Below are positions 2,143 to 60,734 of a stretch of 64,000 bases of DNA, piece by piece. The position numbers were made by a program, and so were the translations under genes. The DNA lies in NCBI RefSeq assembly GCF_000309385.1, contig NZ_JH976537.1, positions 4,698,365 through 4,762,364 on the forward strand, read 5' to 3'. Below the pieces are notes generated by a model. That model was not told where the DNA came from and did not search any database. It saw nothing but the letters and a program-made list of their open reading frames with translations. Position 1 is the stretch's first letter; each line of letters opens with the position of its first letter. Source of the stretch: Nodosilinea nodulosa PCC 7104 (lineage in GTDB: Bacteria > Cyanobacteriota > Cyanobacteriia > Phormidesmidales > Phormidesmidaceae).

Positions 2143-2152
2143 TTTTTTTGCT

Positions 2153-5063: not shown

Positions 5064-5066
5064 ACG

Positions 5067-5981
5067 ATGGTTTGCTCTACCCCGGTTGTATTCCTTATCT
5101 TCCGCCGTCCTGCTCTGACGGCTCGGGTGTTTGAAGCCATCCGTCAGGCGCAGCCTACCCAGTTATTGGTGGTAGCTGATGGTCCTCGCAATGAAGCAGA
5201 GGCCGTTCTATGTCAGCAAGCCAGAGCGGTTACCGAAAATATTGACTGGAATTGCGATGTCTTCCGCAATTACTCAGACGTTAATATGGGCTGCCGCGAT
5301 CGCGTTTCCTCAGGCTTAACCTGGGCATTTGAGCAGGTTGAAGAGGCCATAATTTTAGAAGATGACTGTCTGCCCCATCCATCATTCTTTCGCTATTGCG
5401 AAACCTTGCTCGAATATTACCGCAACGATGGGCGAGTAATGGTGGTCAGCGGGAATAACTTTCAAGATGGTAGACAGTATAAGCCGTACAGTTACTATTT
5501 CTCAAAATATAATCACTGTTGGGGATGGGCTACCTGGCGAAGAGCTTGGCAGCATTGGGAGTTTAATCCGCAAAAGTGGGTCGAATTCCGAGATAGTGGT
5601 TTCATTCAATCGCTATGTCGTGACTCCCAAGAAGAAAAATATTGGACTGACATATTCGATAAACTATTTCTAGAAGGCAATATTAACTCTTGGGGCTACG
5701 TTTGGATGTTTGTTTGCTGGTCTCATGGCGGACTAACAGCCTTACCGCATGTCAACCTGGTTTCTAATATTGGCTTTGGCTCAGACTCTACCCACACTGG
5801 TGGCGAAAGCAAACTAGCTAATATTCCTGCAAAAGAAATTGGTACAATTAGACACTCCACTTTTGTCTTACAACATATAGAAGCAGACTACTACACCTTC
5901 AAAAAAATCTTTAAACAGAAGTTTTTTAAGAAATTATATTATACTGCTTATAAACTAAAGTTGAAGGTATATTCTCTTTAA
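5067..5981 (+). CDS. GT-A glycosyltransferase (GT2-like)
   Basis: Predicted inverting GT-A glycosyltransferase. It opens with TPVVFLIFRRPALTARVFEAI, then LLVVADGPR (first nucleotide-binding strand) and AIILEDDCLPHPSFF, in which EDD is the metal-binding DxD. NHCWGWATWRRAW is a conserved tryptophan-rich stretch seen in cyanobacterial and proteobacterial homologues. 304 residues. Starts 3 nt after the sulfotransferase stop. Higher GC than its two neighbours on either side, so the cluster looks mosaic. Sugar specificity is unknown. Confidence 0.75.
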   Translation: MVCSTPVVFLIFRRPALTARVFEAIRQAQPTQLLVVADGPRNEAEAVLCQQARAVTENIDWNCDVFRNYSDVNMGCRDRVSSGLTWAFEQVEEAIILEDDCLPHPSFFRYCETLLEYYRNDGRVMVVSGNNFQDGRQYKPYSYYFSKYNHCWGWATWRRAWQHWEFNPQKWVEFRDSGFIQSLCRDSQEEKYWTDIFDKLFLEGNINSWGYVWMFVCWSHGGLTALPHVNLVSNIGFGSDSTHTGGESKLANIPAKEIGTIRHSTFVLQHIEADYYTFKKIFKQKFFKKLYYTAYKLKLKVYSL

Positions 5982-6077
5982 GAAAGATTTGAAGCAAGTT
6001 TAATTGCACTTTATCTGTTGACTTTTGGAAGGTTCTTCAAAGTTTTCTTGTAACCTTGAATTTATTTAAAAAACAAT

Positions 6078-6854
6078 ATGCCAAAATATTACCCTAGATT
6101 GTTCTTAAATCAACTCAGCTATCTATTTGGAAAAATTAGAAGGTCAACTAAAAAAACAAAAACCTATTTTCCAAAAGATTTTAGTTCGAATGCTATAAAT
6201 ATCATTGAGCGAGTGCAGGCATTCACCATGACTAGTCCTGAGAGGGTTAACGGACTGTTGGAAGCAGTAGATTATATCACTGCTAACAATCTACCAGGAG
6301 CTATTGTTGAATGCGGTGTTTGGAAAGGAGGAAGCATGATGGCTGTTGCTTATCGGCTAAGAGAGATTGAGAGTATTCACCGAGATCTCTATCTATACGA
6401 TACTTATGAAGGCATGTCTCCTCCGACAGAGAAAGATATCACTTGTTTTAATGTGGAGGCTCAAGTGCTATTGAACAGCAAAGATTTATTAGAAAAAGAA
6501 GCTCATCATTGTTACTGCTCTTTGGAAGAAGTTCAGAGGAATTTATACTTAACAGATTATCCGATGGAGCGAGTCCATTTTATAAAAGGCAAAGTTGAAG
6601 ATGTCATTCCTGAGAAAGCTCCAGAAACAATTGCTTTGCTTAGGTTAGATACCGATTGGTACGAATCTACAAAACACGAATTAGAGCACCTTTTCCCGCG
6701 ATTAGTTCCAGGTGGAGTAATCATCATTGACGATTACGGGTATTGGAAAGGGTGCAAAGAAGCTACAGATGAATACTTTCATAACTATAAAATTCCTCTT
6801 TTGCTAAATCGGATCGATGCAACTGGTAGAATTGGCATTAAATGGCAACCTTAG
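6078..6854 (+). CDS. TylF/MycF-family O-methyltransferase
   Basis: Predicted SAM- and metal-dependent sugar O-methyltransferase of the macrocin-O-methyltransferase (TylF/MycF) family. The family pattern is clear: AIVECGVWKGGSMMA (SAM motif I), LYDTYEGMSPP, ALLRLDTDWYESTKHEL with the metal-binding aspartates, and GGVIIIDDYGYWKGCKEA. 258 residues, normal for the family. Family members methylate hydroxyls of deoxysugars, which fits decoration of the exported glycan. AT-rich. 8 nt before the next methyltransferase. Confidence 0.85.
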   Translation: MPKYYPRLFLNQLSYLFGKIRRSTKKTKTYFPKDFSSNAINIIERVQAFTMTSPERVNGLLEAVDYITANNLPGAIVECGVWKGGSMMAVAYRLREIESIHRDLYLYDTYEGMSPPTEKDITCFNVEAQVLLNSKDLLEKEAHHCYCSLEEVQRNLYLTDYPMERVHFIKGKVEDVIPEKAPETIALLRLDTDWYESTKHELEHLFPRLVPGGVIIIDDYGYWKGCKEATDEYFHNYKIPLLLNRIDATGRIGIKWQP

Positions 6855-6862
6855 CTTAGCTA

Positions 6863-7735
6863 ATGAAAGCTCTTAACCTGGGTTGTGGACGGCGCTATTG
6901 CCCGGAATGGGTCAATATTGACTTTTCTGCTCACAGTGAAAAAGTCATTTCATATGATTTATCAGTCGGAATTCCTTTCGATGACAACAGCTTTGATGTA
7001 GTATATCACTCTCATTTGCTTGAGCATTTCTCTAAAGACAAAGCACATATGCTTGTTCAGGAGTGCTTTCGAGTTTTACGACCTAAAGGAATTTTTCGAG
7101 TTGTTGTCCCTGATTTAGAATCTATTGCACATCTTTATCTTACTGCGTTAGAAAAAGCCAACTTTGGGGATTGCGAGTGGGCCGAAAACTATAACTGGAT
7201 GCTGTTGGAGCTGCTAGATCAGCTAGTACGCATTCAGTCAGGCGGGGAAATGCAGACCTATTTAAAGCAAAAGGCCTTACAAAATTCAGACTTTGTAATT
7301 CAGCGTCTAGGAGTTGAAGCGAAAAATCTGATGACTATTATGGGGGAAGAAACATTGAATCACTCTAATGTTTCAAATGCTATTTTTCCTAACCTATCAG
7401 TTTTTATAGATTCTGCCATAAAGCCGATCTATCGCCTGATACGCCATTCTAATTATCGGCGTAATGCACTTCTTCGACTAATCTTAGGCTTTAGAGATTA
7501 TCAGGCTCTCCAAATTGGCCGTTTTCGGCAGTCCGGGGAGGTTCATCAATGGATGTATGATCACTATTCTTTATCACACCTTCTAAAAAGGTGTGGGTTT
7601 ATAGAAGTTGTTCAGCGCACAGCGTTGACAAGTTACATTCCAAATTGGTCTGCTTACAACTTAGATACTGATCCTGACGGCAGTGTTTATAAACCCGACT
7701 CTCTTTTTATCGAGGGTGTAAAGCCTGTTCCATGA
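6863..7735 (+). CDS. SAM-dependent methyltransferase
   Basis: Class I methyltransferase-like protein. LNLGCGRRYCPEWVNIDF is the SAM motif of a subgroup common in glycan clusters, followed by FDVVYHSHLLEHF and FRVLRPKGIFRVVVPD (motifs IV-VI, Methyltransf_11 type). A ~150-residue C-terminal extension has no recognised motif. The stop overlaps the next start by 4 nt, indicating translational coupling. Substrate unknown; a sugar or glycolipid intermediate is the contextual guess. Confidence 0.75.
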   Translation: MKALNLGCGRRYCPEWVNIDFSAHSEKVISYDLSVGIPFDDNSFDVVYHSHLLEHFSKDKAHMLVQECFRVLRPKGIFRVVVPDLESIAHLYLTALEKANFGDCEWAENYNWMLLELLDQLVRIQSGGEMQTYLKQKALQNSDFVIQRLGVEAKNLMTIMGEETLNHSNVSNAIFPNLSVFIDSAIKPIYRLIRHSNYRRNALLRLILGFRDYQALQIGRFRQSGEVHQWMYDHYSLSHLLKRCGFIEVVQRTALTSYIPNWSAYNLDTDPDGSVYKPDSLFIEGVKPVP

Positions 7736-8967
7736 AGGTTCTCCACATCAATCAGTCAGACACTGCTGGCGGTGCTGCGATCGCTGCTTATCGACTTCAC
7801 CAAGGTCTCCTTCAACGACATATAGACTCTAAGCTTTTAGTGGGACGAAAGCAAACAGACGATCCAAAAACTGCTCAAGTAGTGCGTCCTAAGTGGATTG
7901 AGGATCAGCTCCAAAGAATAACCTGTCGAGCAGGTTTTAATTATATCAACCACATCAGCAGTTTTGCCATTTCCAAACATTCGCTCTTCAAAGCAGCAGA
8001 CATTATTAATTTTCATAATTTACATAATAGTTACTTTAGCTATTTAGCCATTCCACATCTTACGGCACAGAAGCCTGCCATTTTAACTCTCCACGATATG
8101 TGGAGTTTTACTGGTCACTGTACTTATAGTTACGACTGTACCCGTTGGCAAATAGGCTGCGGCAAGTGCCCCTATCCCGATACCTACCCAAACATTCGCC
8201 GTGATGCCACCCATTGGGAATGGGCTTTGAAAGACTGGGCATACAACCGCTCAAACTTAACGATAGTCACCCCTAGCCACTGGTTAAAGGAACAGGCAGA
8301 AGCGAGTCTGCTAAGTCGTTTTTCAGTTCACCATATACCCTACGGTATCAACACCGACGTTTATCAGCCCATAGATTCTGAGCTTTGCCGTAAAGCCCTA
8401 AATATCCCACTAAATAAAAAGGTTTTGCTCTTTAGTGCTGTTAAACTTACAGACTCTCGAAAGGGCGGCGATCTGCTGATCAAGGCATTGGAGCAACTGC
8501 CCAAGGCGCTTAAGCAAGGTTGTGTATTGTTGACTTTAGGTGGCTCCAGTCAGCAGCTAACAGCAGCAGCAGACATATCAATCATCGACTTAGGCTATGT
8601 GAATAGCGATCGCCTCAAGTCGATCGCTTATTCTGCGGCAGATCTTTTCATCTTTCCTACCCGTGCCGACAACTTGCCCTTAGTGCTGCAAGAAAGCATG
8701 GCCTGTGGTACTCCTATGGTATCTTTTGATATTGGAGGGGTATCAGATCTCGTGCGCCCTGGAATTACGGGTTATCTAGCACAACCTGAAAACATAGATA
8801 GTTTTTGCCAGGGTATTGTTGATTTGCTAGAAGACGATAAAAAACGCCAGGTTATGGGAAATAACTGCCGCCATATCGCATTAGAAGAATATACCCTTGA
8901 GTTGCAAGCCAAGCGTTACCAAGACCTTTATCAGCAAGTGCTGTCTAGAGAAAACACTAACTTATAA
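7732..8967 (+). CDS. Glycosyltransferase family 4
   Basis: Predicted GT-B glycosyltransferase of GT4. N-terminus MKVLHINQSDTAGGAAIAAY with the G-G-A-A-x-A-A loop of WcaC-like enzymes, then LTLHDMWSFTGHC with a cysteine-rich insertion (C-x-C type, CGKCPYPDTYP) seen in this subgroup. The donor half carries LFSAVKLTDSRKGGDLL and the signature DNLPLVLQESMACGTP. 411 residues. Followed by a 260-bp AT-rich gap without a recognisable gene or clear promoter. Confidence 0.85.
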   Translation: MKVLHINQSDTAGGAAIAAYRLHQGLLQRHIDSKLLVGRKQTDDPKTAQVVRPKWIEDQLQRITCRAGFNYINHISSFAISKHSLFKAADIINFHNLHNSYFSYLAIPHLTAQKPAILTLHDMWSFTGHCTYSYDCTRWQIGCGKCPYPDTYPNIRRDATHWEWALKDWAYNRSNLTIVTPSHWLKEQAEASLLSRFSVHHIPYGINTDVYQPIDSELCRKALNIPLNKKVLLFSAVKLTDSRKGGDLLIKALEQLPKALKQGCVLLTLGGSSQQLTAAADISIIDLGYVNSDRLKSIAYSAADLFIFPTRADNLPLVLQESMACGTPMVSFDIGGVSDLVRPGITGYLAQPENIDSFCQGIVDLLEDDKKRQVMGNNCRHIALEEYTLELQAKRYQDLYQQVLSRENTNL

Positions 8968-9227
8968 CGTCTCAGTTAGTGCTGTTTGGTAAAAGTGTAT
9001 CCAATTCTTCTGCGCATTTTGTCTATCACAGGCATAACTTGCAGGCCCATAGCGGCAAGACTTATCCACCGAATAGTAAATACCAAATTTATCGTTTACT
9101 TATTTACAAATACTGTTTAAGGCTTTCGGCATTTTGAATAAGTATTCCCTGGATTATTTATCAGTTTTTAAGTAACTCCTAAAGAATAGTAAGGCAAGCT
9201 TATTCCCCCTATCTGCTGAGACAGACT

Positions 9228-10154
9228 GTGCTTTCAGAACAATCAAACCGCCGAGCTTTAACCCTTACCGACTTACCCAAACCACCAGAAAATAGAACGG
9301 GCTGGCCATGGACGAAAGCTAGCAGTCCCTTAGCCGAATACATGCCCGATGGCTCAGCATGGCCGCGCATCAGTATTATCACCCCAAGCTACAATCAGGG
9401 GCAGTTTCTAGAAGAGACAGTTCGTTCAGTTTTACTTCAAGGATATCCAAACTTAGAATACATAGTCATTGACGGAGGCAGCACTGATAATTCTGTTGAA
9501 ATACTGAGAAAGTATCAGGCTCACATTACCTATTGGGTTAGCGAAAAAGACAAGGGCCAAGCTCACGCAATTAACAAAGGATTAAAACTAAGCACTGGAT
9601 CTATTCTTGGCTGGGTCAATAGCGACGATTTGTATGCAAAGAGTGCTTTGCGAAAAGTTGCACAGGCGCTTTACAAAAACCAAAGCTGTACAATGTTGCA
9701 TGGCAACAGAATTTTGTTGAATGTAAAAAGCGAGGTTACGGGCTTTTCCCATCTCCCATCCTTTGATCCCAGCACTAATCAATATATTATTTGTTCGGAA
9801 ACTGCTTTTTGGCGGAGAACTGCCATGGATCAAGCTGGTCTCTTAAAGGAAAGTTTACAGTTCGCGATGGATCTGGAATATTTTGGGCGACTATATTTAC
9901 AGGGTAAGTTTCTGAAGCTAGACGATTACTTAGGCTATTTTCGCTGCTATAACCTAAATAAGAGCTCAACTATACCCCACATACGGCTAAAAGAGGCATC
10001 TAGGGAATGGAAACATCTATTTGGTACTGAGTTAATATCAAAACCTACAAGAATTGGCAAATTAAAATCACTAAAAGTTTTAATTACTCATCCATATTCG
10101 ATAGGTTTCCCTTACGTCTCGTACAAGATGTCAACTATTCGTCAATCCAGTTGA
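9228..10154 (+). CDS. Glycosyltransferase family 2
   Basis: Predicted inverting GT2 glycosyltransferase from a GTG start. After a short leader (LPKPPENRTGWPWT) typical of this subgroup comes ISIITPSYNQGQFLEETVRS and YIVIDGGSTDNSVEIL, then WVNSDDLY (DxD). 308 residues. An ATG further in would remove the conserved leader, so the GTG is kept. 18 nt before the next sulfotransferase. Confidence 0.85.
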   Translation: MLSEQSNRRALTLTDLPKPPENRTGWPWTKASSPLAEYMPDGSAWPRISIITPSYNQGQFLEETVRSVLLQGYPNLEYIVIDGGSTDNSVEILRKYQAHITYWVSEKDKGQAHAINKGLKLSTGSILGWVNSDDLYAKSALRKVAQALYKNQSCTMLHGNRILLNVKSEVTGFSHLPSFDPSTNQYIICSETAFWRRTAMDQAGLLKESLQFAMDLEYFGRLYLQGKFLKLDDYLGYFRCYNLNKSSTIPHIRLKEASREWKHLFGTELISKPTRIGKLKSLKVLITHPYSIGFPYVSYKMSTIRQSS

Positions 10155-10172
10155 GAGAATGCATCCCCTTTT

Positions 10173-11048
10173 ATGAATACGTTTTTTGTAATCGGTTGCC
10201 CTAGGTCTGGAACAACGTTTTTGATGAACTGCTTAGAAGCGCTTCCTTATGCCGAGTGTTTATCGGGTATTTCTTTTCCTGTTCCTATCGCGCACCTTGC
10301 GGCTCAGCAGCTACCCGAACATATAAATCACTGCTTGGAATATGCCTTAGAATCAACTTTGAATGTGTATCTTGATTCTATTCCTAATTCTCGGTTTAAA
10401 GCACTTCATCGCTTGGCAACGGGCTCTATGAGGTTTCAGGAGGCCAAAGAATTACTTCAACAGCGACGGCAGTTACAAAGACTGATTTATAAAGAGCCGT
10501 TTTTTAGTTTTGCGCCCGACTTTCTCTACAGAGCGCTACCAAACTGTAAAATCATATATTTATACCGAGACGGTCGTGACTGCGCAAATTCCTTAGTTAA
10601 GAGCTATGGTGTACTAACAGATGAAAAGCTTAAGACTCTTAGAACATCAGAATCATCGCTAGGCTACCAGTATCGAGGTTTATGGATGCCTTGGTGGGTC
10701 TCAATCGATCAGGCCAGTGATTTTATAAGTGCTTCACCCTACGTTCGCGCCATTTGGATGTGGAAGGAGATGGTGCACGCTTGTGAAGGTTTTTTTTCTC
10801 AAGATGATGTTCTGTCAAGCGGACGAATCTTGAAAATAAAGTACGAAGACTTGGCCCATGAGCCTACAGTCTTTGGGGAAAAAATTGTCCATTACATTGG
10901 TGCTGATTTTGATCAGCGGCTTCAGAAAAAGTTCAGGCAAGCCTCAGTGAAGTCCATTGGGAAATATATGCGTCGAGAAGTCGAAGAAATTAAAGCAGCA
11001 GAAAACATTGCATTCCGTGAACTTACCCTATATGGCTATATCAAATAG
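10173..11048 (+). CDS. Sulfotransferase (Sulfotransfer_1/3 type)
   Basis: Predicted PAPS-dependent sulfotransferase. FFVIGCPRSGTTFLMNCL at the N-terminus is the phosphosulfate loop (P-R-S-G-T), and KIIYLYRDGRDCANSLVKSY near residue 130 is the 3'-phosphate motif with R-D-x-R-D. ILKIKYEDLAHEP is the conserved Y-E-D-L element. This is a different family from the sulfotransferase at 4443, so the two probably modify different positions. 291 residues. Confidence 0.85.
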   Translation: MNTFFVIGCPRSGTTFLMNCLEALPYAECLSGISFPVPIAHLAAQQLPEHINHCLEYALESTLNVYLDSIPNSRFKALHRLATGSMRFQEAKELLQQRRQLQRLIYKEPFFSFAPDFLYRALPNCKIIYLYRDGRDCANSLVKSYGVLTDEKLKTLRTSESSLGYQYRGLWMPWWVSIDQASDFISASPYVRAIWMWKEMVHACEGFFSQDDVLSSGRILKIKYEDLAHEPTVFGEKIVHYIGADFDQRLQKKFRQASVKSIGKYMRREVEEIKAAENIAFRELTLYGYIK

Positions 11049-11057
11049 AATAATGGC

Positions 11058-12167
11058 GTGAGCACTTCACAATCAATAATCTCTATAGTGCCTAGGCTCC
11101 CACCTGCTGTTGATGGAGTGGGTGATTATGCTTTCAACTTGGCAAGGCAACTTCGTTTAGACTATGGCCTCGATACTCATTTTTTGATTGGAGACCTAGA
11201 TTGGGTAGGAAGTGAGCAACTAGAGGGATTTCAAATTACAAAGGTTACCGATCGCTCAGCGGCATCTCTTTGTCTTCAATTAGCTCAGATAAACCCTAAA
11301 AGCCCTATTCTTCTACATTATGTAGGCTATGGTTACGCTAAACGCGGGTGTCCGGTATGGTTAGCTACTGGGTTGAAGGCTTGGAAACATCAATGCAAAA
11401 GTGCTCGTTTGGTCACAATGTTTCATGAGACTTCTGCTTCTGGCCCAATCTGGACGAGTGCTTTTTGGCTTTCTGGATTGCAGGAAAACTTAGCTAAGCA
11501 ATTAGTCGGACTAAGCGATCGTGTTCTTACCAGCAAACAGCTCTATGCAGAGATTTTGCAGCGTTTTATTAATCAGAAAGCGAACTCTCAAAACAATTCT
11601 AAGCTACCAATCCCAGCTTTACCAGTTTTTTCTAACGTCGGAGAGCCTGACATTATCTTACCGTTAGATAAAAGGGATCGTACAGTAGTTGTTTTTGGCG
11701 GCTTTGCTACACGCACTCGCGCATATCGGCACAGCCAGAGTGAATTAGTTTATGCGTGCAAGCAATTCAACATCAAAAAAGTTATTGACATTGGTCCTTA
11801 TAATAGGCTTAATCCAGCTAGCATAGGAAATATCCCAATTGATATTTTAGGGCCTAGATCTGCTTTAGAAGTAAGCCAGATTCTTTTGTCTTCCTTTGCT
11901 GGTTTTATCGATTACCCCACTGACTTTTTAGGAAAATCAACTGTATTCGCTGGCTATTGTGCCCATGGTGTTCTGCCAATTGTTAAGGGGATTCATGACT
12001 TAGATGCAGACGGATTGATCAAGCAGCAGCATTATTGGCATGTCGACTCGACTTATACAAGTATTAATGAGTCAATTGCTCAAGAGATTGCTAATAATGC
12101 CTACGCTTGGTATCAAGCTCATAATCTTGCAACTCAGGCAGGTCAATTCACAAAATTTCTTTCTTGA
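11058..12167 (+). CDS. GT-B-like glycosyltransferase
   Basis: Starts at a GTG 9 nt after the preceding stop. The N-terminus ISIVPRLPPAVDGVGDYAF matches the acceptor half of GT4-like proteins with the V-G-D-Y-A loop. The C-terminal donor half is weak: the E-x7-E signature is replaced by STVFAGYCAHGVLPIV. This subgroup occurs in cyanobacterial glycan clusters, and its activity is less certain than for the other GT4 genes here. 369 residues. Confidence 0.65.
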   Translation: MSTSQSIISIVPRLPPAVDGVGDYAFNLARQLRLDYGLDTHFLIGDLDWVGSEQLEGFQITKVTDRSAASLCLQLAQINPKSPILLHYVGYGYAKRGCPVWLATGLKAWKHQCKSARLVTMFHETSASGPIWTSAFWLSGLQENLAKQLVGLSDRVLTSKQLYAEILQRFINQKANSQNNSKLPIPALPVFSNVGEPDIILPLDKRDRTVVVFGGFATRTRAYRHSQSELVYACKQFNIKKVIDIGPYNRLNPASIGNIPIDILGPRSALEVSQILLSSFAGFIDYPTDFLGKSTVFAGYCAHGVLPIVKGIHDLDADGLIKQQHYWHVDSTYTSINESIAQEIANNAYAWYQAHNLATQAGQFTKFLS

Positions 12168-12190
12168 AGTAAACTCAGAGGCTGCTTTTG

Positions 12191-13165
12191 GTGGAAATAG
12201 TAGAGATTGTAGTAGTCATAAACTCTTTTAATCGGTGCCAACTATTAAGTGAAGCACTTCCATCAGCCGTACGTGCGCTAAGGCAGATCTCAAACAAGGC
12301 AGCAATTGTTGTTTTTGATGCGGGGTCTACCGACGGTAGTATTAAATTTATTCAAAATTACTTCTCCCAAACTGTAGACATTGAAACCCATTGCCTGATT
12401 CCGTCTTTAGAAGCTGACCGATCCTTCAGCGCAGGATGTAATGAGGCCATTAAGTTTGCCGGCCAGAAGTATCCAACTCTTAAATACTGCTTTTTCTTTG
12501 AAACTGACAATTTAATTATCAACGATAGAGCCTTAATCCTTGCAATTCAGCTTCTAGAGCAAGAGCAGGATCTCGGTGCCGTAGGATTTACAGTGGAGCA
12601 GTGCAACCAGCGCAAGACAGGATTTGGTAGCCCATTTCCCACCCTTTTATCTTTTGTTATAGGGCAGCAATTATCTAATCGACTGGGTCTAGAAAACACA
12701 ACATCTCTCCAATGGCAGGACTTTCAAGGAACAAGGTGGGGAGCGAGTGATATTGTTTATACTAGTCCTCTGCTTGTTCGCTATCACACGTGGCAAGTCA
12801 CAGGAGGCATGGATCAAAAAAAGTTCCCATTCTCGGACTGCGATAGTGATTGGTGCTGGTCAGCTCGTAAGCAAGGGTGGCGTGTAGCGGTGTTAGATTT
12901 GCCAGGTGTAATTCACGATAACCGAATGCATGCCTCTGTCTGGTCTGGCAATCGAGTAATCGACTTCCACCGAGCTAGATTTCGCTTACTGGCTAAACAT
13001 CGAGGGCAGAGATTAATTTTTCTCAAGCCGCTATTATGGGTGAGACATTGTTTAGAGGCCGTTTTATTGATAATCAAGTCGTGCTTTTCAAAACGTGCTA
13101 GGAAATCATTCCGTCACCGCTTAATTTTATTAAAGACAGTATTTAGTTCTTATGAATCTACATAG
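12191..13165 (+). CDS. Glycosyltransferase family 2
   Basis: Predicted GT2 glycosyltransferase. VVINSFNRCQLLSEALPSAV and IVVFDAGSTDGSIKFIQNY form the nucleotide-binding half, and FFETDNLIIN supplies a T-D-N variant of the DxD. DCDSDWCWSARKQGW is the acceptor-side E/D-D-x-D-W-x-x-R-like motif. GTG at 12191 sits about 9 nt after AGAGG; the TTG at 12188 is an alternative. A basic, hydrophobic C-terminal stretch may bind the membrane. 2 nt before the next gene. Confidence 0.75.
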   Translation: MEIVEIVVVINSFNRCQLLSEALPSAVRALRQISNKAAIVVFDAGSTDGSIKFIQNYFSQTVDIETHCLIPSLEADRSFSAGCNEAIKFAGQKYPTLKYCFFFETDNLIINDRALILAIQLLEQEQDLGAVGFTVEQCNQRKTGFGSPFPTLLSFVIGQQLSNRLGLENTTSLQWQDFQGTRWGASDIVYTSPLLVRYHTWQVTGGMDQKKFPFSDCDSDWCWSARKQGWRVAVLDLPGVIHDNRMHASVWSGNRVIDFHRARFRLLAKHRGQRLIFLKPLLWVRHCLEAVLLIIKSCFSKRARKSFRHRLILLKTVFSSYEST

Positions 13166-13167
13166 CT

Positions 13168-14049
13168 ATGGCGAGCAAAAGTAAAATATCAGTACTGGCC
13201 GAAAAAATTGCCTGGAAAGGGCGCCAAAAGTATTCACAGTTCCGATGCCGGATGGGAGGAGGAAAGTTTGTTTGGAAGGTGGATGAGAAGGTTCAGTTTG
13301 TATCCTATGTAGGCGATCCGTTCTCTCACGTTTTGTTTGTATGCAAAGGACATGAAAAAGTTGAGCTAAACTGGTGCGATCGCTGGCTCAAGCTCGACCA
13401 ATCCGCTCAATCTGTAATCGATTGTGGTGCGAATATTGGCTATTTTTCGGCGATGCTAGCTCAGCGATGTTTCCTCGATAAGGTTTTGGCTATTGAAGGA
13501 AATCGGCATACGGCTAAACTTTGTCAAGCAACGTTTGACATTTTGAATTTGCAAAATAGCCAGGTTATAGAAGCAATCTTGGCTGAAAATTCAGAAGAGC
13601 ACTATCACATATCGGACAAACCCGGATTGGAGCCTTGGCAGAATGCGGTTAGGGTTACTCCTGAAGCAAGCAATATTCATACAACGACCTTAGACCAAGT
13701 AATCCTTGACTCTGGGGTTAATCCAAGTTTAGTAAAGATCGATTGCGAAGGCTCTGAAACATTGATCCTCAAGGGAGCAAATTATACTTTGGAGTCACTG
13801 CGTCCAGCCTTCATGATTGAATGTAACGATACAGCATTAGAGACTGCTGGCACTAACCGTAAAGAGTTATTTGGTTTGCTTAGAAAGAATCATTACAAGC
13901 TATTTCATCTAGCAAGCTTTACTGGATTTTATCCATTTGGCCTAGAGGTTCAAGATAATTTCCCTTCATCAGAATTCAACTTTGCCGCAATTCCCAATGA
14001 TCATGCTAATGTTGCTCGTTGGACAAACTCTGCCAATGCAGATTCTTAG
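13168..14049 (+). CDS. FkbM-family methyltransferase
   Basis: Predicted SAM-dependent O-methyltransferase of the FkbM family, which methylates hydroxyls of polyketides and sugars. VIDCGANIGYFSAMLAQ is motif I, VLAIEGNRH the acidic strand 2 end, LVKIDCEGSETLILKGA the family hallmark, and PAFMIECND the last core strand. 293 residues. Followed 14 nt later by a second, divergent FkbM gene. Confidence 0.85.
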   Translation: MASKSKISVLAEKIAWKGRQKYSQFRCRMGGGKFVWKVDEKVQFVSYVGDPFSHVLFVCKGHEKVELNWCDRWLKLDQSAQSVIDCGANIGYFSAMLAQRCFLDKVLAIEGNRHTAKLCQATFDILNLQNSQVIEAILAENSEEHYHISDKPGLEPWQNAVRVTPEASNIHTTTLDQVILDSGVNPSLVKIDCEGSETLILKGANYTLESLRPAFMIECNDTALETAGTNRKELFGLLRKNHYKLFHLASFTGFYPFGLEVQDNFPSSEFNFAAIPNDHANVARWTNSANADS

Positions 14050-14063
14050 GGCAGCATAATAAC

Positions 14064-14816
14064 ATGTTTAGTATCCTAGCTCATTCTGTCATAGAGCTTG
14101 GCAATCGAATTCAGAACTATGGCTATTGTTTATCGAATCCATCCTACTTAAAGGTTAGATCTGGTAAAGGCTGTGCGGATATTTACAGGCTACTAAACAA
14201 AAGCTGGTTTCCAAAGGACGAGATAGAACTTGTCCTAGATGTTGGAGCAAACGAAGGTCAGTTTATCAACACCTCGCTTGCATTAATGCCTAGTATTCCA
14301 GTTTATGCATTTGAACCAAATCCAAAGTTGGTCAAAATTTTGTGTAGCAAATATACCAATCTTGACGTAAAAATTTTTCCGTTTGCTTTGGGTGAAAGCC
14401 CGTGCCAAGCATCTTTTAACGTCTCAAAGTTTTCTCCTTCATCCTCCTTTCTAAAAGCTAACGATCAGCTAACTGCCGAGTTCCCAGGACTTACGGTAGA
14501 GGAAGTGGTTAAAGTTGAGATTAAGCGGTTAGACAACCTTTTAATCAACGGCGCGGCAAAGGATTTTTTGCTCAAAATTGATGTTCAAGGTTTCGAAATG
14601 GATGTTCTAAGAGGAGCAGTTGGCGTACTTGAGCATGCTCTTGTAGTAGTATGTGAGGTTAATTTTGCTTCTTTGTACGAAGACCAGTGTACTTTTGAAG
14701 AAATTATTTCGTTTCTGCGTACATACGGCCTTTATCTGGTTGACATCGGGCAACCGATACGGTCACGCCACAACCAAGAGGTTCTGTACTTAGATCTTGC
14801 ATTTCTTAAAAAATGA
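14064..14816 (+). CDS. FkbM-family methyltransferase
   Basis: Second FkbM-type O-methyltransferase. LVLDVGANEGQFINTSL is motif I, VYAFEPNPKLV the strand 2 region, and LLKIDVQGFEMDVLRGA the hallmark. ATG at 14064 is chosen over an in-frame upstream codon at 14019 that would run back into the preceding gene. 250 residues, a typical length. It differs enough from its neighbour to suggest two separate methylation positions rather than recent duplication. Confidence 0.85.
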   Translation: MFSILAHSVIELGNRIQNYGYCLSNPSYLKVRSGKGCADIYRLLNKSWFPKDEIELVLDVGANEGQFINTSLALMPSIPVYAFEPNPKLVKILCSKYTNLDVKIFPFALGESPCQASFNVSKFSPSSSFLKANDQLTAEFPGLTVEEVVKVEIKRLDNLLINGAAKDFLLKIDVQGFEMDVLRGAVGVLEHALVVVCEVNFASLYEDQCTFEEIISFLRTYGLYLVDIGQPIRSRHNQEVLYLDLAFLKK

Positions 14817-14828
14817 ATCTAGCCATCA

Positions 14829-15839
14829 ATGCATATACTGATCTATTCACCTGTGTTTTATCCCAGTGTTGGTGGGTTAGAAACAGTTACCTTGATACTG
14901 GCTAGTGAGTTTGCTGCTCAAGGTCATACTGTGAAGTTGATTTCTCAGACCCCCGAAGCTGCTGTAAAGTTATTCAATTTTGATATAATTCGCCGCCCGA
15001 ATGCTCTGCGATTTATAAAACTTGTACACTGGTGCGATGTGTTCTTTCAGCCCAGCATTAGCCTTTGGGGTGTTTGGCCGTTGTTACTTTGCCCAAGGCC
15101 TTGGGTTGCTTCTCACAATAACTGGTACTGCCGCGACAACGGCAGTCTATCCTGGCAAGATTATGCAAAGCGGTTTCTGCTTCGATTTGCCACTAATATT
15201 TCCGTTAGCCAAGCTATTGCTGATCACATTTCGATTTCCTCAATAGTGATACCCAATCCCTATCGAGACGATCTGTTTAAGCAATGTCCTAATGTCGTTC
15301 GCGATCGCGAATTAGTGTTTTTAGGAAGACTCGTTTCTGATAAAGGAGTTGACTTATTGCTCGATGCTCTAGCTCTGCTGAGGGAAAATGGTTTAGAACC
15401 CAGGCTTACTATTGTTGGTGACGGTCCCGAGTTGGAGTCATTAAGTCAACAGTCCCGTGGACTGGGTTTAACCGATCAGGTAGAGTTTGTAGGCGTAAAA
15501 GTAGGGCAGGAACTGGTGGATATACTCAATGGTCACCAGATTTTGGTTGTCCCCTCTCGCTGGCGAGAGCCCTTTGGCATTGTAGCTCTCGAAGGCATTG
15601 CCTGCGGCTGTGTCGTTGTTGGGTCATCGGGCGGCGGACTAAAAGGTGCTATTGGTGACTGTGGTATTACGTTTCCTAATGGCGACAAGGCTGTTCTAGC
15701 TCAAGTTCTCCAACAGCTGCTAACTCAGCCTGCCCTGCTTGCACGTTATCGAGCCAGCGCTGCCCATCACCTGGCAAAGCACCAAAAAAGGTCTATAGCT
15801 AAAGCCTATCTTCAAGTCCTGGAGGGTGCCCGTCTGTGA
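14829..15839 (+). CDS. Glycosyltransferase family 4
   Basis: Predicted GT4 enzyme. It starts MHILIYSPVFYPSVGGLETV with the S-V-G-G-x-E loop; the donor half has LVFLGRLVSDKGVDLLLDAL, LTIVGDGPELESL, and the signature EPFGIVALEGIACG. 336 residues, on the short side but complete. Overlaps the start of the polymerase-like gene by 4 nt (GTGA), so the two are translationally coupled. Confidence 0.88.
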   Translation: MHILIYSPVFYPSVGGLETVTLILASEFAAQGHTVKLISQTPEAAVKLFNFDIIRRPNALRFIKLVHWCDVFFQPSISLWGVWPLLLCPRPWVASHNNWYCRDNGSLSWQDYAKRFLLRFATNISVSQAIADHISISSIVIPNPYRDDLFKQCPNVVRDRELVFLGRLVSDKGVDLLLDALALLRENGLEPRLTIVGDGPELESLSQQSRGLGLTDQVEFVGVKVGQELVDILNGHQILVVPSRWREPFGIVALEGIACGCVVVGSSGGGLKGAIGDCGITFPNGDKAVLAQVLQQLLTQPALLARYRASAAHHLAKHQKRSIAKAYLQVLEGARL

Positions 15840-17248
15840 ACAATATTCTTTTAGCCCTATTTGCTGCGGGCTTCATTTTTCTACTCTCTGCCCAAAACTG
15901 GCAACGGTCTATCAAAGCTGTTTTAGTCTTGGTGGTGCTTGAGGGAGTGCTGCGCAAGTGGGTACTTCCCCAAGCGAGTCAATTTATCTATTTTCTCAAA
16001 GATTTTGTTCTAATTAGTGCATACCTGCGCTACTTTTTGCTGTCACCTGTTCAAATACGGCTGTTCACCCAAAAGACTACTATTTTAGTACTGGTGGGGT
16101 GCATGGCTGTATGGGGAGGGATACAAGCATTTAATCCAAGTTTAGGTTCACCTATTATCGGCCTGTTTGGCCTTAAGAACTATTTCCTCTACATACCTCT
16201 CATTTGGCTAGTGCCTCAAATGTTTGGGACTGAAGAAGATTTATATCGGTTTATCCGCCACTATTTACTGCTCCTAATTCCGGTAGGGTTGCTAGCCACC
16301 GCTCAATTTTTTAGCCCGCCCACCAGCCCACTCAATGTCTATGCCTGGGGAGAAGAGGGTCCTGCTGTTGTTACTTCCGGCTTGGATACAGTGCGGGTGA
16401 CGGGCACGTTTTCGTACTTGACGGGCTACTCAACCTATCTGTTGGCTTGCCTGTGTTTACTGCTACCAATCATCTCTCGTCCCCAGCCTCGCCTATGGCA
16501 AACGCTAACGCTGGTTGAGGGAGCGCTGATTGTAGCAACTTCGTTTATGACTGGTTCTCGTGGCTTAGTCTTTGGCTCAGTGCTGCTGATTGCTGGCTAT
16601 GGGTTTCTGTTGGCAGCAGCTAGCTTTTCCAACTTTTTTAGAAGTGCTCGCAAGCTAATTTTGCCAGGAATAATTAGTTTTTTACTGGTTTCACAGGGAG
16701 CTCGCCTTGCGTTCGACTCTTTTGTTAACCGAGTGGAAACAGTTAATGATAGTGTCACTACTCGGATCAGCAGCTCTTTTTTACAGCCCTTTAGCAACTT
16801 CCAGCTGAAGGGGTTAGACGGTTACGGTCTAGGAGCTACATTTCAGGCCAACAGCATTATTCGGCGACTCTTTCGTCTGCCGCCAGGGGAAACTATTCCG
16901 GTTGGCTACGAGAGCGAAATGGGGCGAGTTGCTCTAGAGGTGGGCCCGATTGGCTTTTTCCTTTGGTATGGATTGCGGCTGGTGCTCCTTTTCAGCTTGT
17001 TTAGAGTTTTTCTTCAGCTTACTCATCCGTTCTTACGTCAGCTGGCGCTCAGTACTTTTGTTTATCAGAGTGTAACCATTATTTCTCAGATGGTCTACAA
17101 CCACACCGCTAGCGTTTATCACTGGTTTTTCTACGGCTTTATTCTTTTGCTCCCGTATTTGGAGCGGGTACATCAGTGGCAGCACACTCAACAATTCGGG
17201 CTTCTCTATGGCCATTCGACGCATTTCACTGGTACATCCCACCAGTAA
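15836..17248 (+). CDS. O-antigen polymerase/ligase-like membrane protein (Wzy/WaaL)
   Basis: Polytopic inner-membrane protein of ~470 residues with roughly ten hydrophobic segments. The motif SFMTGSRGLVFG near residue 240 and the following long periplasmic-type loop (to about residue 370) fit the Wzy_C/O-antigen ligase family, which polymerises or transfers undecaprenyl-linked glycans on the outer face of the membrane. GTG start overlapping the preceding stop; its 3' end overlaps the next glycosyltransferase by 41 nt. Polymerase versus ligase cannot be decided from sequence. Confidence 0.75.
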   Translation: MNNILLALFAAGFIFLLSAQNWQRSIKAVLVLVVLEGVLRKWVLPQASQFIYFLKDFVLISAYLRYFLLSPVQIRLFTQKTTILVLVGCMAVWGGIQAFNPSLGSPIIGLFGLKNYFLYIPLIWLVPQMFGTEEDLYRFIRHYLLLLIPVGLLATAQFFSPPTSPLNVYAWGEEGPAVVTSGLDTVRVTGTFSYLTGYSTYLLACLCLLLPIISRPQPRLWQTLTLVEGALIVATSFMTGSRGLVFGSVLLIAGYGFLLAAASFSNFFRSARKLILPGIISFLLVSQGARLAFDSFVNRVETVNDSVTTRISSSFLQPFSNFQLKGLDGYGLGATFQANSIIRRLFRLPPGETIPVGYESEMGRVALEVGPIGFFLWYGLRLVLLFSLFRVFLQLTHPFLRQLALSTFVYQSVTIISQMVYNHTASVYHWFFYGFILLLPYLERVHQWQHTQQFGLLYGHSTHFTGTSHQ

Positions 17249-18461
17249 TCCAAATTCTCGTAATGCTGCGATCGCACTAGCCGACGCCAACCTGCTCCAT
17301 GAGATTATTACAACTATTGCCTACAATCCCAAAGGCCAACTGGCCCAGGCTATTCAGCGATTGCCCCGCGCGATCAATCGCATTCTCAGTCAAGAACTAG
17401 AGCGGCGCACCTGGGTTGCGCCCGGCAGTGCGAGCACGAAGGCTCATCCGTGGCGAGAAGCGCTCAGGGTCTGTTTGGTGAAGTCGAGGCTAAGTTCTAG
17501 GCTGGGTTTAGGCTCCCAGGGGCCAATCGACTGGGTATATGCCTCCCTCGATCGCCACGTAGCGCGGCATCACCTCGATCACCTCGAAGCCGTCTACGCC
17601 TATGAAGATGGGGCAGCATCTACCTTTCAATCGGCCAAGCAAAGGGGCATACGCTGTTTTTACGAGTTGCCCATTGTTTTTCATCGCGCGGCTCGACAGA
17701 TTCAGCAGGACGAAGCCAATCTTTTTCCGGAGTTTTCCCCATCGCTTCAAGCCATCCACGAGCCGCTTTGGAAGCTAGAGCGCAAGGAGCAGGAAATTGC
17801 CTTGGCCGATCATATATTTGTACCCTCTTCCATGACGCGTCAATCGCTTTTAGATGCGGGTGTAACATCTGAGCGGATCTCGGTGATTCCCTACGGTGCG
17901 CCAGTGGATTACTTTAAGCCCCAGGCTAAACTCGATGACAAATTTCGCGCCTTGTTCGTGGGTCGAGTTGGCCCGCGAAAAGGGGTTCACTATTTATTAC
18001 AAGCATGGCAAAAGCTTCGGCTTCCTGAGGCTGAACTGAAGCTGGTGGGAATTAATGAGTTTCCGCCGGGATGGATAGAATCTTATCGAGATTCCATCCA
18101 CTATTTACCCAGTGTTCCCCATGCCAGTCTGCATCACCACTACTGTAGTTCGAGCGTGCTTGTCTTTCCATCTTTAGTCGAGGGTTTTGGTTTAGTTCAG
18201 CTAGAAGCGATGGCCTGCGGAATTCCGATTATAACCACCCCTAATGCGGCTGGTCCTGATATTATTACTGATGGAGTTGAAGGATTTATAGTTCCTATTC
18301 GTGATTCTGAAGCAATTCAAGAAAAACTGGAGTGGTGCTATCAAAACCCCGATGAACTGGCGGAAATGGGGTCGGCGGCTCGACGAAAAGCTGAGGCTTT
18401 GACTTGGCCAGTCTATCAGCGAAAGCTTGCGGATAAGATCAACAGTCTGCTTTCTCGGTAG
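17208..18461 (+). CDS. Glycosyltransferase family 4
   Basis: Predicted GT4 enzyme. The N-terminus ISLVHPTSNPNSRNAAIALA is shared by a cyanobacterial subgroup, which supports this start despite its 41-nt overlap with the upstream gene. Donor half: FRALFVGRVGPRKGVHYLLQ and EGFGLVQLEAMACGIP. 417 residues. GC content rises here toward the genome level. Confidence 0.88.
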   Translation: MAIRRISLVHPTSNPNSRNAAIALADANLLHEIITTIAYNPKGQLAQAIQRLPRAINRILSQELERRTWVAPGSASTKAHPWREALRVCLVKSRLSSRLGLGSQGPIDWVYASLDRHVARHHLDHLEAVYAYEDGAASTFQSAKQRGIRCFYELPIVFHRAARQIQQDEANLFPEFSPSLQAIHEPLWKLERKEQEIALADHIFVPSSMTRQSLLDAGVTSERISVIPYGAPVDYFKPQAKLDDKFRALFVGRVGPRKGVHYLLQAWQKLRLPEAELKLVGINEFPPGWIESYRDSIHYLPSVPHASLHHHYCSSSVLVFPSLVEGFGLVQLEAMACGIPIITTPNAAGPDIITDGVEGFIVPIRDSEAIQEKLEWCYQNPDELAEMGSAARRKAEALTWPVYQRKLADKINSLLSR

Positions 18462-54626: not shown

Positions 54627-54777
54627 CGGCGGCTACAATTGTCGCGCCTGCGACGTTACGGGCGTTTGCTCCGCGATCGCGCAAAATTTTCCTGGGCACT
54701 CCTAGATTCCTGTGGCACAATACCCAGCGGAGCGCCGCAGACTGATTTTTACCGTACAGAAAGCAAGGGTGTTCCCT

Positions 54778-55914
54778 ATGTCTTCTACCGATTTGTCCGT
54801 TCTTTCGGCTGACCAAGCTAGCTCCAGCGGGAACGAAACCGCCGCTGAGTTTACGCCCAATTCAGCCTTTTTTGGCAGCAACAGCGTGCTGAGTCTGCTG
54901 GCCGCCTTTGACCCCAGCTTTGCCGATTTTGTCGCTGATGCCGCCGCTGCCCTGCCCGAAGCAGCGGGGCAGGTGACGGTGACCGACGGCCTGTTCGACG
55001 CCAATCTGGCCCTGGCCGACGGCACCACTCTGACCGGCAGCTTCGACGCCCCAGCCACGCTGCGAGACTATGCGGACCTAGCCGCGGTGTCTGACGGCAG
55101 CGTGACCCTGAGCGGGGGAATTTTGGAGGCCGCGATCGCGACCGATGGCCAAACGGCCTCGCTCCCAGCCTTCGACCTGTCTGCCGCCGTCAGCAACCTG
55201 GTGCTCGACAGCATCAACGCCATCGATGCTACGGTGCCTTTCTCCAACGGCGCGTTTGCCCTCGATCTGGCTACGGCCCTAGGCCCCGTCAGCGGCACCA
55301 TTGACGTGGCCGGGGGCGACCTCAACCTCGATTTGGCCACGCCCTTTGGCCAGCTTGTCGCCGCCATGGACTTTAGCGACGATGCCGTTATCCCCTTCAC
55401 CGCCCCGGTAGCCGGGTTGGGCAACATCGACGGCGCGGTGGATTTCAACAGCGGCAGCATTGTGGCCGATGTCGGCCCATTTGGAAACTTATCCGTGCCG
55501 ATTTCAGCCGTGAGCGGGGCGTTTACCCTGGCAGACGGAGTAGGTCACCTGGATGCCACACTGCCCATTGGTTCAGGCCTCAACCTGCCCGTAACCGCCG
55601 ACCTCGACGTTGGCCCCTTGGCCAGCGAGTATGCAGCCGGGTTTGTTCAAGACCTCGACGGCGCTGGCACGCTCACCGACGGCGTTCTCGACGCCACCCT
55701 GGCAAGCCCCATCGGCGTATTCGACACCACCTTTGACGTAGCGGCCTTTGCCAACCAGGGGGCCGACTTCTTTGCCGGTATCGACGGCACTATCGATGTG
55801 GGCGGCGGTATCGCTACGGCATCGCTGACTACGCCCCTGGGCGATATTAACGGCAGCGTTGATCTGGCGGCAGCGGCCCCTGCCCTGGAAACTCCGATCG
55901 CGGAACTGGGCTAG
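54778..55914 (+). CDS. Acidic lysine-free repeat protein, unknown function
   Basis: 378 residues from ATG at 54778, preceded by AAGGG. It contains no Lys, Cys or Trp, a single Arg and a single His, and very many Asp, Ala, Gly, Leu and Thr. After ~60 residues with some helix, it is a run of ~15-residue beta-strand pairs such as LDLATALGPVSGTIDVAGG, LATPFGQLVAAMDFS and LTTPLGDINGSVDLAA. No signal peptide is visible. Composition suggests a secreted or surface beta-solenoid or sandwich; not recognised. Confidence 0.7.
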   Translation: MSSTDLSVLSADQASSSGNETAAEFTPNSAFFGSNSVLSLLAAFDPSFADFVADAAAALPEAAGQVTVTDGLFDANLALADGTTLTGSFDAPATLRDYADLAAVSDGSVTLSGGILEAAIATDGQTASLPAFDLSAAVSNLVLDSINAIDATVPFSNGAFALDLATALGPVSGTIDVAGGDLNLDLATPFGQLVAAMDFSDDAVIPFTAPVAGLGNIDGAVDFNSGSIVADVGPFGNLSVPISAVSGAFTLADGVGHLDATLPIGSGLNLPVTADLDVGPLASEYAAGFVQDLDGAGTLTDGVLDATLASPIGVFDTTFDVAAFANQGADFFAGIDGTIDVGGGIATASLTTPLGDINGSVDLAAAAPALETPIAELG

Positions 55915-56455: not shown

Positions 56456-56959
56456 ATGGCAGACATTCCACACGTTGTGAATATGGCCGAACTGATCTGG
56501 AAAGACGAACACCACTCCGAAGATTACACGGGTTGGTCAAAACGTCTCACCCCCGCCATGGATCATCGTCGGGGTCACATTGGGGTTGTAGTTGAGCGGT
56601 TAAAGCCCAAGAGTCTCTCCTGCCCGCACCACTACCATGTCCATGAAGATGAATTTTGCCTCATTCTCAAGGGCAAAGCGAGGCTGCGCTACGGGCATAC
56701 AACCGTCGAAGTTAAGGAGGGAGACGCCATTTCTTTCCCGCGAGGAGAGCGGGTGGCCCACCAGTTTTACAACCATACCGATGATGTAGTCGATATTTTA
56801 ATGGTGGGAGAAAATCTTCCCTATGAGGCCTGTTATTTCCCCGATTCAAACAAGTGGTTATCTCGATCGATCAGGGGGGTGGGCAAATTTGAAGCCACCG
56901 ATTACTGGGCAGAAGAGCCTGAAATTCCGGTCATGAAGCGCGATCAGCCCGCTTCTTAA
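56456..56959 (+). CDS. Cupin-domain protein
   Basis: 167 residues, start fixed by GGAGG 7 nt upstream. Single cupin barrel: CPHHYHVHEDEFCLILKGKA gives motif 1 with metal ligands H-x-H-x-x-E, and GDAISFPRGERVAHQFYN gives motif 2 with the final His. Resembles small cupins acting as isomerases, dioxygenases or sugar-sensing proteins; substrate unknown. Bracketed by diverged direct repeats and next to an IS remnant. Confidence 0.85.
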   Translation: MADIPHVVNMAELIWKDEHHSEDYTGWSKRLTPAMDHRRGHIGVVVERLKPKSLSCPHHYHVHEDEFCLILKGKARLRYGHTTVEVKEGDAISFPRGERVAHQFYNHTDDVVDILMVGENLPYEACYFPDSNKWLSRSIRGVGKFEATDYWAEEPEIPVMKRDQPAS

Positions 56960-58544: not shown

Positions 58545-60734
58545 CTACCAGCCACCACTGCCCCACTCGCGGCTGTTCTCGGGCGCGGCGGCGATGGGGA
58601 TGGCGCGGGGGATATCCTGAATCACCTGCACCTGAATCACCTGGTTTGGCTCAATGACAACGGTTTGGGGAGAGGTGCCCACCACGGTGGTGGCTCCTAC
58701 CAAGGCGCCGCCCACTAAACCAATGCCGCTAAAACCCGTCAACAGCAGCAGGGCCAGGGCACCCAAGCCAGCCCCGGCGGCCAGACGCGGCGTGCTGACC
58801 TCGGTGTTCCCCACGATGTAGTCGGTGGTGCTGGCAAAGGCAACTTGCTGCCCGGCGGGGGCAATCAGCATTTTGCTGACCCAGCGCTGGCCCTGGAGAG
58901 AAGGCTCAAACTGGCCAATCAGCTGGCTGCCGGCCGGGGCCACAATGCCGTTAGTAATTGGATCGCGAATATCGTGGGCCAGCAGCAGCACCTGGTTTTG
59001 GCTGGAGTTGGTGCTGAGATCGAGGGGCTCATCGCCCACGTATTGCAGCTCTAGAACCGTGCCCGCAGCCACCAGGGTATCGGGGGAGAGGGGGCGATCG
59101 GCGGGGGCAGGGTTAACAGAGCTGGGTAAGGCCGCCTGGCTACCGCCGGGCAGCGGACTGCCAAACAAAATTGGCTCTCCGGCAGAGGCAATGATGACTG
59201 GCTCATCCGGGGGCACTACGGTGCCCTGGCTGGTGGTGGTCGGGGCGGCAGGAACGGTCAGCAGGTTGGGGTCGGTGCCAGTCAGCCCCACCGGCACCGT
59301 GGCGACTGGCGGCGGCTCTTGGCTGATGGAGCTGCCCCCCTCAATGGTACTGGGCTGGGCCGCGATCGCGTCGGCAGGCTGCCCTGGCTCTGGCGATGCT
59401 GTCACGGTCGAGGGCACGGCAGCATCGGCGCTCAAGTCTGGCAGGGCCGGAGGGTTTTCGGCAATTACTGGGGCAGGGCGGCTAGACTCGGCGGCGGGGG
59501 CTGCCGGGGGATCCACCGCGATCGCCCCAGGCGATGGGGTGGGTAGGGCTGGGGCAGGCAGGTCTGGAGCGGTAACCGCCGGGGTCGCTGGTGCCGGGGC
59601 CGCTGCCGGGGCCGCTGGTGCCGCTGGTGCCGCTGCCGTCACCTCTGGCGGCGTTACCGCAATGGGCACACCGCTGGCCTCGCTATCTCGATCGATGGGG
59701 GATAAATCCGCAGGCTGGGCTGCCGGGGGCGCAGCAGGGCTGGCGGGCTGGGCTGCGACGACTTCGGATTGAGGGGCGGCGGTGGGCGGTTCAGGGGCCG
59801 CCGGAGCGGTACCGGGGGTAAGGGGCGGCTCCTGGGTCAGGACCGAACCTGTCCCGCCAGCGGGGGAGGCAACCGGCGATCTGGCGATCGCCCCCGGCTG
59901 GCCGGCGGCCCCGCTGGTTGGCGGTTCCAGCTGGGCCGGACTGGCTCCCTGGGGAAGGGCCGCCACAGGGCCGACGGCGGCATCGAGTTCGGCCAGGCTG
60001 GGCACCGAGACTTGCTCCCCAGGCCGCCCCAGGTTGAACGGATCGACCGGCAGAGCATCGGGCAAATTTGCCAGATTATCGATGTCGCTGGGCAGCATCA
60101 GGTTGGCTGCCGAGGTGCTCAACCGCCCGGCCCCTGCCTCTGGAAAGCCCAGCCGAGGGTCATTTCCCGGAATTATCGGTAGCTCTACAACCATGTCAGC
60201 AGTGCCTGGGGCAGCCGCTGCTGGGGTACCGTTGGAGTCAGGGGCCAGGGCCGTGAGTATCCAGCGGGTTTGGCCTTCAGCGGCGACGGACACCAGGCTT
60301 GGGCCATCTGCTGCGATCGCGCTGTTTGCCGCCAGTTCGAGCACCACCACGGTGTCGCCGCCGACCTGGCTGAGGCTGATCTGACTCACAGCACTACCGC
60401 TGTAGGTCTGCTGGGCTGGCACCGCCCCCAGCTCAGTTTGGGGCAGGGTGAGCACGATGCGGGCCGGGTCCGTCTCGACGGTGTAGTGAGGGGTAATGCC
60501 GCTGGGCAGCGTCAGGGTCAGCTGCTGGGTGGCCGGGTCAAACTGCCAGGCAGATAGGGTCTCTGCCCGTGCGGCAGGGCTGATGACCAGCAGGGTAGAC
60601 ACCATAAGGCCCGCCCCGGCCCAGTTACCCAGGCGATAACCCGTTGTGGGTCGGTCCGTTGTGGGTCGGACCGCTGTGGGTCGGCCCGCTGTTGGTCGGC
60701 CCGATCGAGCGAAATGGTGGATTGGGTGTTCCAT
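58545..60734 (-). CDS. AMIN-domain protein with long Pro/Ala-rich linker
   Basis: 729 residues; ATG follows GGAG. A cytosolic leader with four RPTxx pentapeptides precedes a signal-like segment (AGLMVSTLLVISPAARA). Residues ~60-170 form an AMIN domain (LTLTLPSGITPHYTVETDPA; RIVLTLPQTELG), a cell-wall/envelope-targeting fold. A ~330-residue Pro/Ala/Ser-rich, probably disordered linker follows. The C-terminal ~170 residues (GTVLELQYVGDEPLDLS; GSQLIGQFEPSLQGQRWV) resemble the TrbI/VirB10-like beta-barrel fold and contain a Gly-rich hydrophobic stretch. Envelope-spanning role inferred. Confidence 0.75.
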   Translation of the reverse strand: MEHPIHHFARSGRPTAGRPTAVRPTTDRPTTGYRLGNWAGAGLMVSTLLVISPAARAETLSAWQFDPATQQLTLTLPSGITPHYTVETDPARIVLTLPQTELGAVPAQQTYSGSAVSQISLSQVGGDTVVVLELAANSAIAADGPSLVSVAAEGQTRWILTALAPDSNGTPAAAAPGTADMVVELPIIPGNDPRLGFPEAGAGRLSTSAANLMLPSDIDNLANLPDALPVDPFNLGRPGEQVSVPSLAELDAAVGPVAALPQGASPAQLEPPTSGAAGQPGAIARSPVASPAGGTGSVLTQEPPLTPGTAPAAPEPPTAAPQSEVVAAQPASPAAPPAAQPADLSPIDRDSEASGVPIAVTPPEVTAAAPAAPAAPAAAPAPATPAVTAPDLPAPALPTPSPGAIAVDPPAAPAAESSRPAPVIAENPPALPDLSADAAVPSTVTASPEPGQPADAIAAQPSTIEGGSSISQEPPPVATVPVGLTGTDPNLLTVPAAPTTTSQGTVVPPDEPVIIASAGEPILFGSPLPGGSQAALPSSVNPAPADRPLSPDTLVAAGTVLELQYVGDEPLDLSTNSSQNQVLLLAHDIRDPITNGIVAPAGSQLIGQFEPSLQGQRWVSKMLIAPAGQQVAFASTTDYIVGNTEVSTPRLAAGAGLGALALLLLTGFSGIGLVGGALVGATTVVGTSPQTVVIEPNQVIQVQVIQDIPRAIPIAAAPENSREWGSGGW
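60641..60700. repeat. Four tandem 15-bp units
   Basis: ccgttgtgggtcggt and three close variants, in frame within the AMIN gene, encoding R-P-T-x-x repeats on the minus strand before its signal segment. Confidence 0.75.

Follow-up and report, generated by a model that had tools for sequence, protein, structure and literature searches.

The locus and its product

The window, that is the whole 64,000-nucleotide stretch of DNA analysed here, carries one gene (the target) whose product is unusual in composition.

54778..55914, + strand: coding sequence of a 378-residue acidic beta-repeat protein without lysine, cysteine and tryptophan

The open reading frame was translated without internal stop and the gene is single-copy in its genome. 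The composition count (K0, R1, H1, C0, W0, D41, E7) agrees with the original prediction, which had described a protein of 378 residues devoid of Lys, Cys and Trp, with one Arg, one His and many Asp. The net charge is about -47 and the computed pI of about 4.05 corresponds to the floor of the calculator. The high solubility that had also been proposed for this protein is doubtful because its GRAVY is +0.55. The lysine plus arginine content was compared with that of 320 ORFs of at least 150 residues, taken from the window and 400 kb of its genome. The mean of this baseline is 9.0% and its first percentile 3.9%, whereas the target has 0.3% and the next lowest ORF 3.0%; the scarcity of basic residues exceeds chance. 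Furthermore, among 316 sampled ORFs, the target alone combines a GRAVY above 0.4 with a net charge below -0.05 per residue.

The gene order hisA-fabI-serine hydrolase-CAAX protease-target-radC is conserved at the genus level only. A conserved operon partner was sought and rejected, none being shared across genera. Seven non-carriers in the genus have the radC-DUF1824 pair, and in this empty-site comparison the target does not lie beside it. In the window, a cupin gene (56456-56959) lies between the target and radC and is absent from this position in the other genus loci compared. Further downstream, 58545-60734 (- strand) encodes a Pro/Ala-rich protein of 729 residues with a single lysine, a second lysine-poor protein in the vicinity; its N-terminal region is presumably AMIN-like and it is probably an envelope protein. 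At the other end, positions 1-18000 have a G+C content of 39-50%, compared with about 58-67% over most of the remaining window, and this lower value suggests a different origin for the first 18 kb.

Start codon, promoter-like block and leader

54711..54721, + strand: extended -10-like promoter element TGTGGCACAAT, putative, a near-invariant column block in the leader alignment
54765..54777, + strand: leader AAGGGTGTTCCCT, with a 4-bp AGGG/CCCT hairpin that encloses an SD-like AAGGG, directly before the ATG

A start at the in-frame GTG of 54712 would lengthen the protein by a basic stretch of 22 residues. This alternative was rejected because in most homologues of the genus an in-frame stop precedes the ATG by no more than about 40 nt, and because the conserved noncoding leader ending in AAGGGTGTTCCCT abuts the ATG at 54778. 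Both the promoter-like block and the leader are conserved even in homologues of 52-54% identity, and the leader core AGGGTGTT is kept in 17 aligned leaders. A consensus scan did not call a sigma-70 site at the block. The isolated hairpin folds at -5.2 kcal/mol and is not the preferred structure when the longer leader of the window is folded; translational control through this hairpin is possible. The leader element occurs as one exact copy in the genome, the others being at chance level, so that a genome-wide element was rejected, and an Rfam search of the leader gave no matching element. Two further stem-loops are present upstream in most members of the genus and have been lost in the genome of the window.

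Relatives

Homologues were found in 32 of the 65 genomes of the order, i.e. in 31 besides that of the window. Identity to the target is 52-74% for homologues of the genus and 29-38% for those of six further genera; the homologues at 69-73% belong to Nodosilinea, Leptolyngbya, Tildeniella and Phormidium strains. A first profile search in a draw of genomes from the phylum did not detect any homologue outside the target's own genome. A second profile, used on a draw from the class, added 18 genomes in three other families, with E-values down to 4e-71, and a restriction of the family to one order was therefore rejected. Since the two draws differ in genomes, no overall prevalence was estimated from them; the order and class draws together give homologues in 50 genomes. 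Plasmid and phage collections contained no relatives by tblastn and an origin from either was rejected. The target and its homologues form an undescribed cyanobacterial family of stand-alone beta-repeat proteins.

Selection on the gene and against basic residues

In all pairs compared within the genus, dN/dS lies between 0.09 and 0.24; purifying selection acts on the target, which is a genuine gene. With its codon usage, about 9.8% of the non-synonymous single-base changes are expected to create a lysine or an arginine. Only 4 of 305 substitutions did so in the target (1.3%). For hisA, fabI, serine hydrolase, CAAX protease, radC and DUF1824, six neighbours of the target in the same genomes, the count was 69 of 611 (11%). 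The Fisher p of 7e-9 is approximate because the counts are distinct residues per column and not events on a tree. The depletion of lysine and arginine is selected, as the original prediction had supposed from its extent. Homologues rich in Lys or Arg, which would have spoken against that proposal, were not encountered: the members of the order have 0-6 such residues and no cysteine, and those outside the order have 0-14 in 212-392 residues, with 0-1 cysteine. As the distant members carry up to 14 basic residues, the exclusion is tightest within this order.

Repeat and predicted fold

The family alignment was submitted to AlphaFold2, which gave for the target a mean pLDDT of 80.5 and a pTM of 0.64.

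54778..54849, + strand: N-terminal region of about 24 residues, acidic and predicted disordered (pLDDT <50, residues 1-24)
54964..55221, + strand: two predicted beta-beta-beta-alpha units (residues 63-103 and 105-148), reproduced for homologue L022
55225..55605, + strand: predicted long beta-meander (residues 150-276), with a 22-residue TPxG hairpin spacing (166 to 188)
55609..55890, + strand: predicted helix 278-291 followed by two beta-beta-beta-alpha units (294-333 and 336-371)
55864..55911, + strand: C-terminal amphipathic helix and tail, from comparison of homologue tails

The disordered region contains a stretch resembling DLSPNQDFFNEEEAVVEF which is conserved in the genus, and helices are predicted at residues 29-61. 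The meander would consist of roughly twelve strands. The C-terminal helix and tail could possibly act as a C-terminal export signal, judging from the homologue tails; the uncleaved C-terminal signal of type I export is not reliably defined at the sequence level. The predicted fold is an antiparallel beta-meander with interspersed helices and amphipathic strands, in agreement with the beta structure anticipated from the repeats. Homologue L022, about 30% identical, yields the same topology at lower confidence (pLDDT 75, pTM 0.43), the two predictions being not fully independent as their alignments overlap. The alternation of hydrophobic with small or acidic residues along the strands is 0.48, versus 0.29 ± 0.05 in shuffled sequences, and the invariant columns of the family are glycines nearly throughout.

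The TPxGxxxGxxDxA repeat first described for this protein occurs as one exact copy, TPLGDINGSVDLA, and several degenerate ones (TALGPVSGTIDVA, TPFGQLVAAMDFS and SPIGVFDTTFDVA). TPxG-type motifs are also present at residues 310 and 352, and the target retains one 22-residue TPxG step (166 to 188). A minimal relative of 212 residues (L159, 4044-4679, + strand), with neither lysine nor arginine, has seven TPxG-type motifs at exact 22-residue spacing. This regularity suggests that the ancestral unit was a 22-residue TPxG beta-hairpin.

Searches for known families, folds and motifs

No family match was obtained for the target in Pfam, NCBIfam, PHROGs or PDB sequences, and the initial statement that the protein was not recognised still holds after these homology searches. 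The PDB sequence matches to SteA (E 0.28) and Eap/Map (E 0.15) were rejected as chance level. Foldseek against the PDB and viral models returned no usable match; the best TM-scores of two models against the PDB were about 0.1-0.2, below the fold criterion of 0.5. Four distant members of the family resemble T2SSN/GspN (PF01203) below threshold (best E=1.1e-4, 22.8 bits for a cut-off of 29.6), while the target itself is unmatched. At the N-terminus MSSTDLSVLSADQASSSGNE, inspection by eye revealed neither a Sec nor a Tat signal, basic residue and hydrophobic core being both missing. A literature search on Nodosilinea exoproteomes and on lysine/arginine-free proteins returned nothing on the family.

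The target was also scanned for the RTX nonapeptide (no GGxGxD), for PF00353 (no match in Pfam), for EF-hand or DxDxDG-type loops and for metal motifs, all without result, and only 5 of the 369 columns of the family alignment are at least 90% acidic. Because features of Sec, RTX and EF-hand proteins are missing and the acidic columns are mostly unfixed, the overall charge and the absence of cations look selected; the alignment points to conservation of the total charge and not of a particular site.

Proposed export and its alternatives

The favoured reading, to which we give somewhat less than an even chance, is a signal-less type I/ABC export followed by the formation of a negatively charged extracellular beta-structure. 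Hairpin repeats of about 22 residues with a TPxG turn would build the long antiparallel meander, with helices packed at intervals, and every strand would have one aliphatic and one small/acidic face. Purifying selection excludes lysine, arginine and cysteine, most likely for the sake of export: devoid of a Sec signal, the protein would leave the cytoplasm unfolded through a type I (ABC/HlyD/TolC) exporter which disfavours cationic substrates, and would fold outside in the sheath, in the matrix or at cell-surface interfaces. Type I export is favoured because ABC secretion is the established context for a scarcity of cationic residues and cysteines. In experiments, cationic patches prevent secretion by ABC transporters (PMC9223453). 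RTX proteases, with a pI of 4.0-4.6, and S-layer proteins, which contain no cysteine, are both acidic (PMC3034196). In the genome of the window, which encodes RTX proteins and a HlyD that scores above the curated cut-off, the RTX proteins contain 1.8-6.9% lysine plus arginine (five of the seven at most 4.2%) and 0-1 cysteine, for a genome median of 8.8%. The target has the broad type I substrate profile, i.e. it is acidic, cysteine-free and of low cationic density. By analogy, its secretion is plausible, and it is in this way that we infer the export route and an extracellular structural role.

Within the order, HlyD is present in 19 of 31 carriers versus 10 of 33 non-carriers, a weak co-occurrence (p=0.02, phylogeny being ignored). 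The twelve carriers in which a HlyD match at E<=1e-40 is missing count against the type I route, and the low lysine/arginine content of the probably Sec-exported 58545-60734 product counts against an explanation specific to type I. No transporter gene adjoins the target, which stands alone in every genome inspected. This lowers the case for type I export but does not abolish it, and the protein was not filed as a member of that class; orphan type I substrates are common. Three genomes have an ABC-HlyD pair at 7-10 kb upstream of the homologue, the only transporter closely linked to it; in the window's own genome the pair is at 250 kb from the target. The ABC protein of the near-linked pair has a C39 peptidase domain; such transporters usually serve GG-leader peptides, and the target lacks a GG leader.

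The main alternative, although unlikely, is an interface protein, since one face of the sheet is hydrophobic and there is a weak resemblance of distant members to T2SSN. The acidic amphipathic sheet would coat a hydrophobic surface (a lipid or storage granule, the air-water interface or outer-envelope lipid) or hold lipid in a groove, inside or outside the cell, and lysine and arginine would be excluded so that one face stays uniformly negative. The joint hydrophobicity and negative charge that set the target apart among the 316 ORFs and the strand alternation are consistent with such a role, as is the resemblance to T2SSN/GspN, an AsmA-like beta-groove protein. However, these scores are under the cut-off and come from repetitive queries, solved groove-protein structures give TM-scores below 0.2, and the hydrophobic face may just be covered by the helices.

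A role in the cytoplasm, where the acidic protein would bind or buffer partners of positive charge (metals, polyamines or basic proteins), is distinctly unlikely. The missing signal peptide and the conserved strong negative charge agree with it. In addition, in all five related-family loci concerned (L153, L154, L155, L156 and L157), the homologue is divergent from the cobalt/nickel uptake genes cbiM-cbiN, and a common regulatory region is possible; but this link is limited to one clade, and the few fixed acidic columns and the lack of a metal motif speak against such binding. The original prediction had also suggested calcium binding, which is unsupported by the motif scans and column counts above: an RTX- or EF-hand-like surface beta-roll would suit the 41 Asp and the Gly-rich turns, but the acidic positions drift among homologues and this reading is very improbable. 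That the ORF is spurious or a frame shadow, with a low-complexity product, or a decaying gene, as an Ala/Gly-rich protein without database family might be, has practically no probability left, being already refuted by the dN/dS values and opposed by the homologues in 50 genomes, the conserved promoter-like block and leader and the confident fold (pLDDT 80).

Detectability and significance

No tryptic peptide of 7-30 residues is produced by 19 of the 30 order members examined, the target included, and the others give at most three. Members of the family would almost always escape detection by ordinary trypsin-based proteomics. The search of exoproteome data first recommended for this protein would thus mislead if based on trypsin, and absence from such data is uninformative. 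Lysine-directed labelling would find the N-terminus as sole reactive amine, and Coomassie staining of a protein of this kind is expected to be poor.

In a broader reading, possible rather than probable, the TPxG hairpins of 22 residues would fold into an amphipathic, uniformly anionic sheet and would represent a beta-repeat architecture that is new, that of an export-optimised extracellular or interface protein from which selection by the secretion channel or the interface, and not by a binding site, removed almost every cationic residue. If so, the family would have gone unseen by methods based on trypsin, Coomassie or amines. A protein class unseen by standard bottom-up proteomics matters wherever cyanobacterial exoproteomes are treated as complete. 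In the target, moreover, lysine and arginine are almost completely kept out of a folded protein that approaches 400 residues. This exclusion is natural and conserved, and its measurable selection signal, together with the gradient across relatives, makes a cationic limit on non-Sec export testable in vivo.

Comparison with known systems

With cyanobacterial RTX/type I substrates (PF00353), some of them encoded in the same genome, the target shares the lack of a Sec signal, an acidic, cysteine-poor and K/R-poor composition and glycine-rich beta-repeats. It differs by the absence of the GGxGxDxUx nonapeptide and of a PF00353 match, by its hydrophobicity (GRAVY +0.55), by a lysine plus arginine content several-fold below that of the same-genome RTX proteins, and by the family repeat unit, a hairpin of 22 residues instead of 9. 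Repeated amphipathic beta-strands are common to the target family and to T2SS protein N (GspN, PF01203), but the target is unmatched, lacks an N-terminal membrane anchor and does not lie in a type II secretion context, and the similarity of the distant members is under the curated cut-off in all. Oscillin carries RTX-type calcium repeats, which are missing from the target, whose surface location is putative. Like the target, S-layer/oscillin-type proteins of gliding cyanobacteria are acidic and cysteine-free (PMC3034196 for S-layer proteins); they are also lineage-specific and built from repeats.
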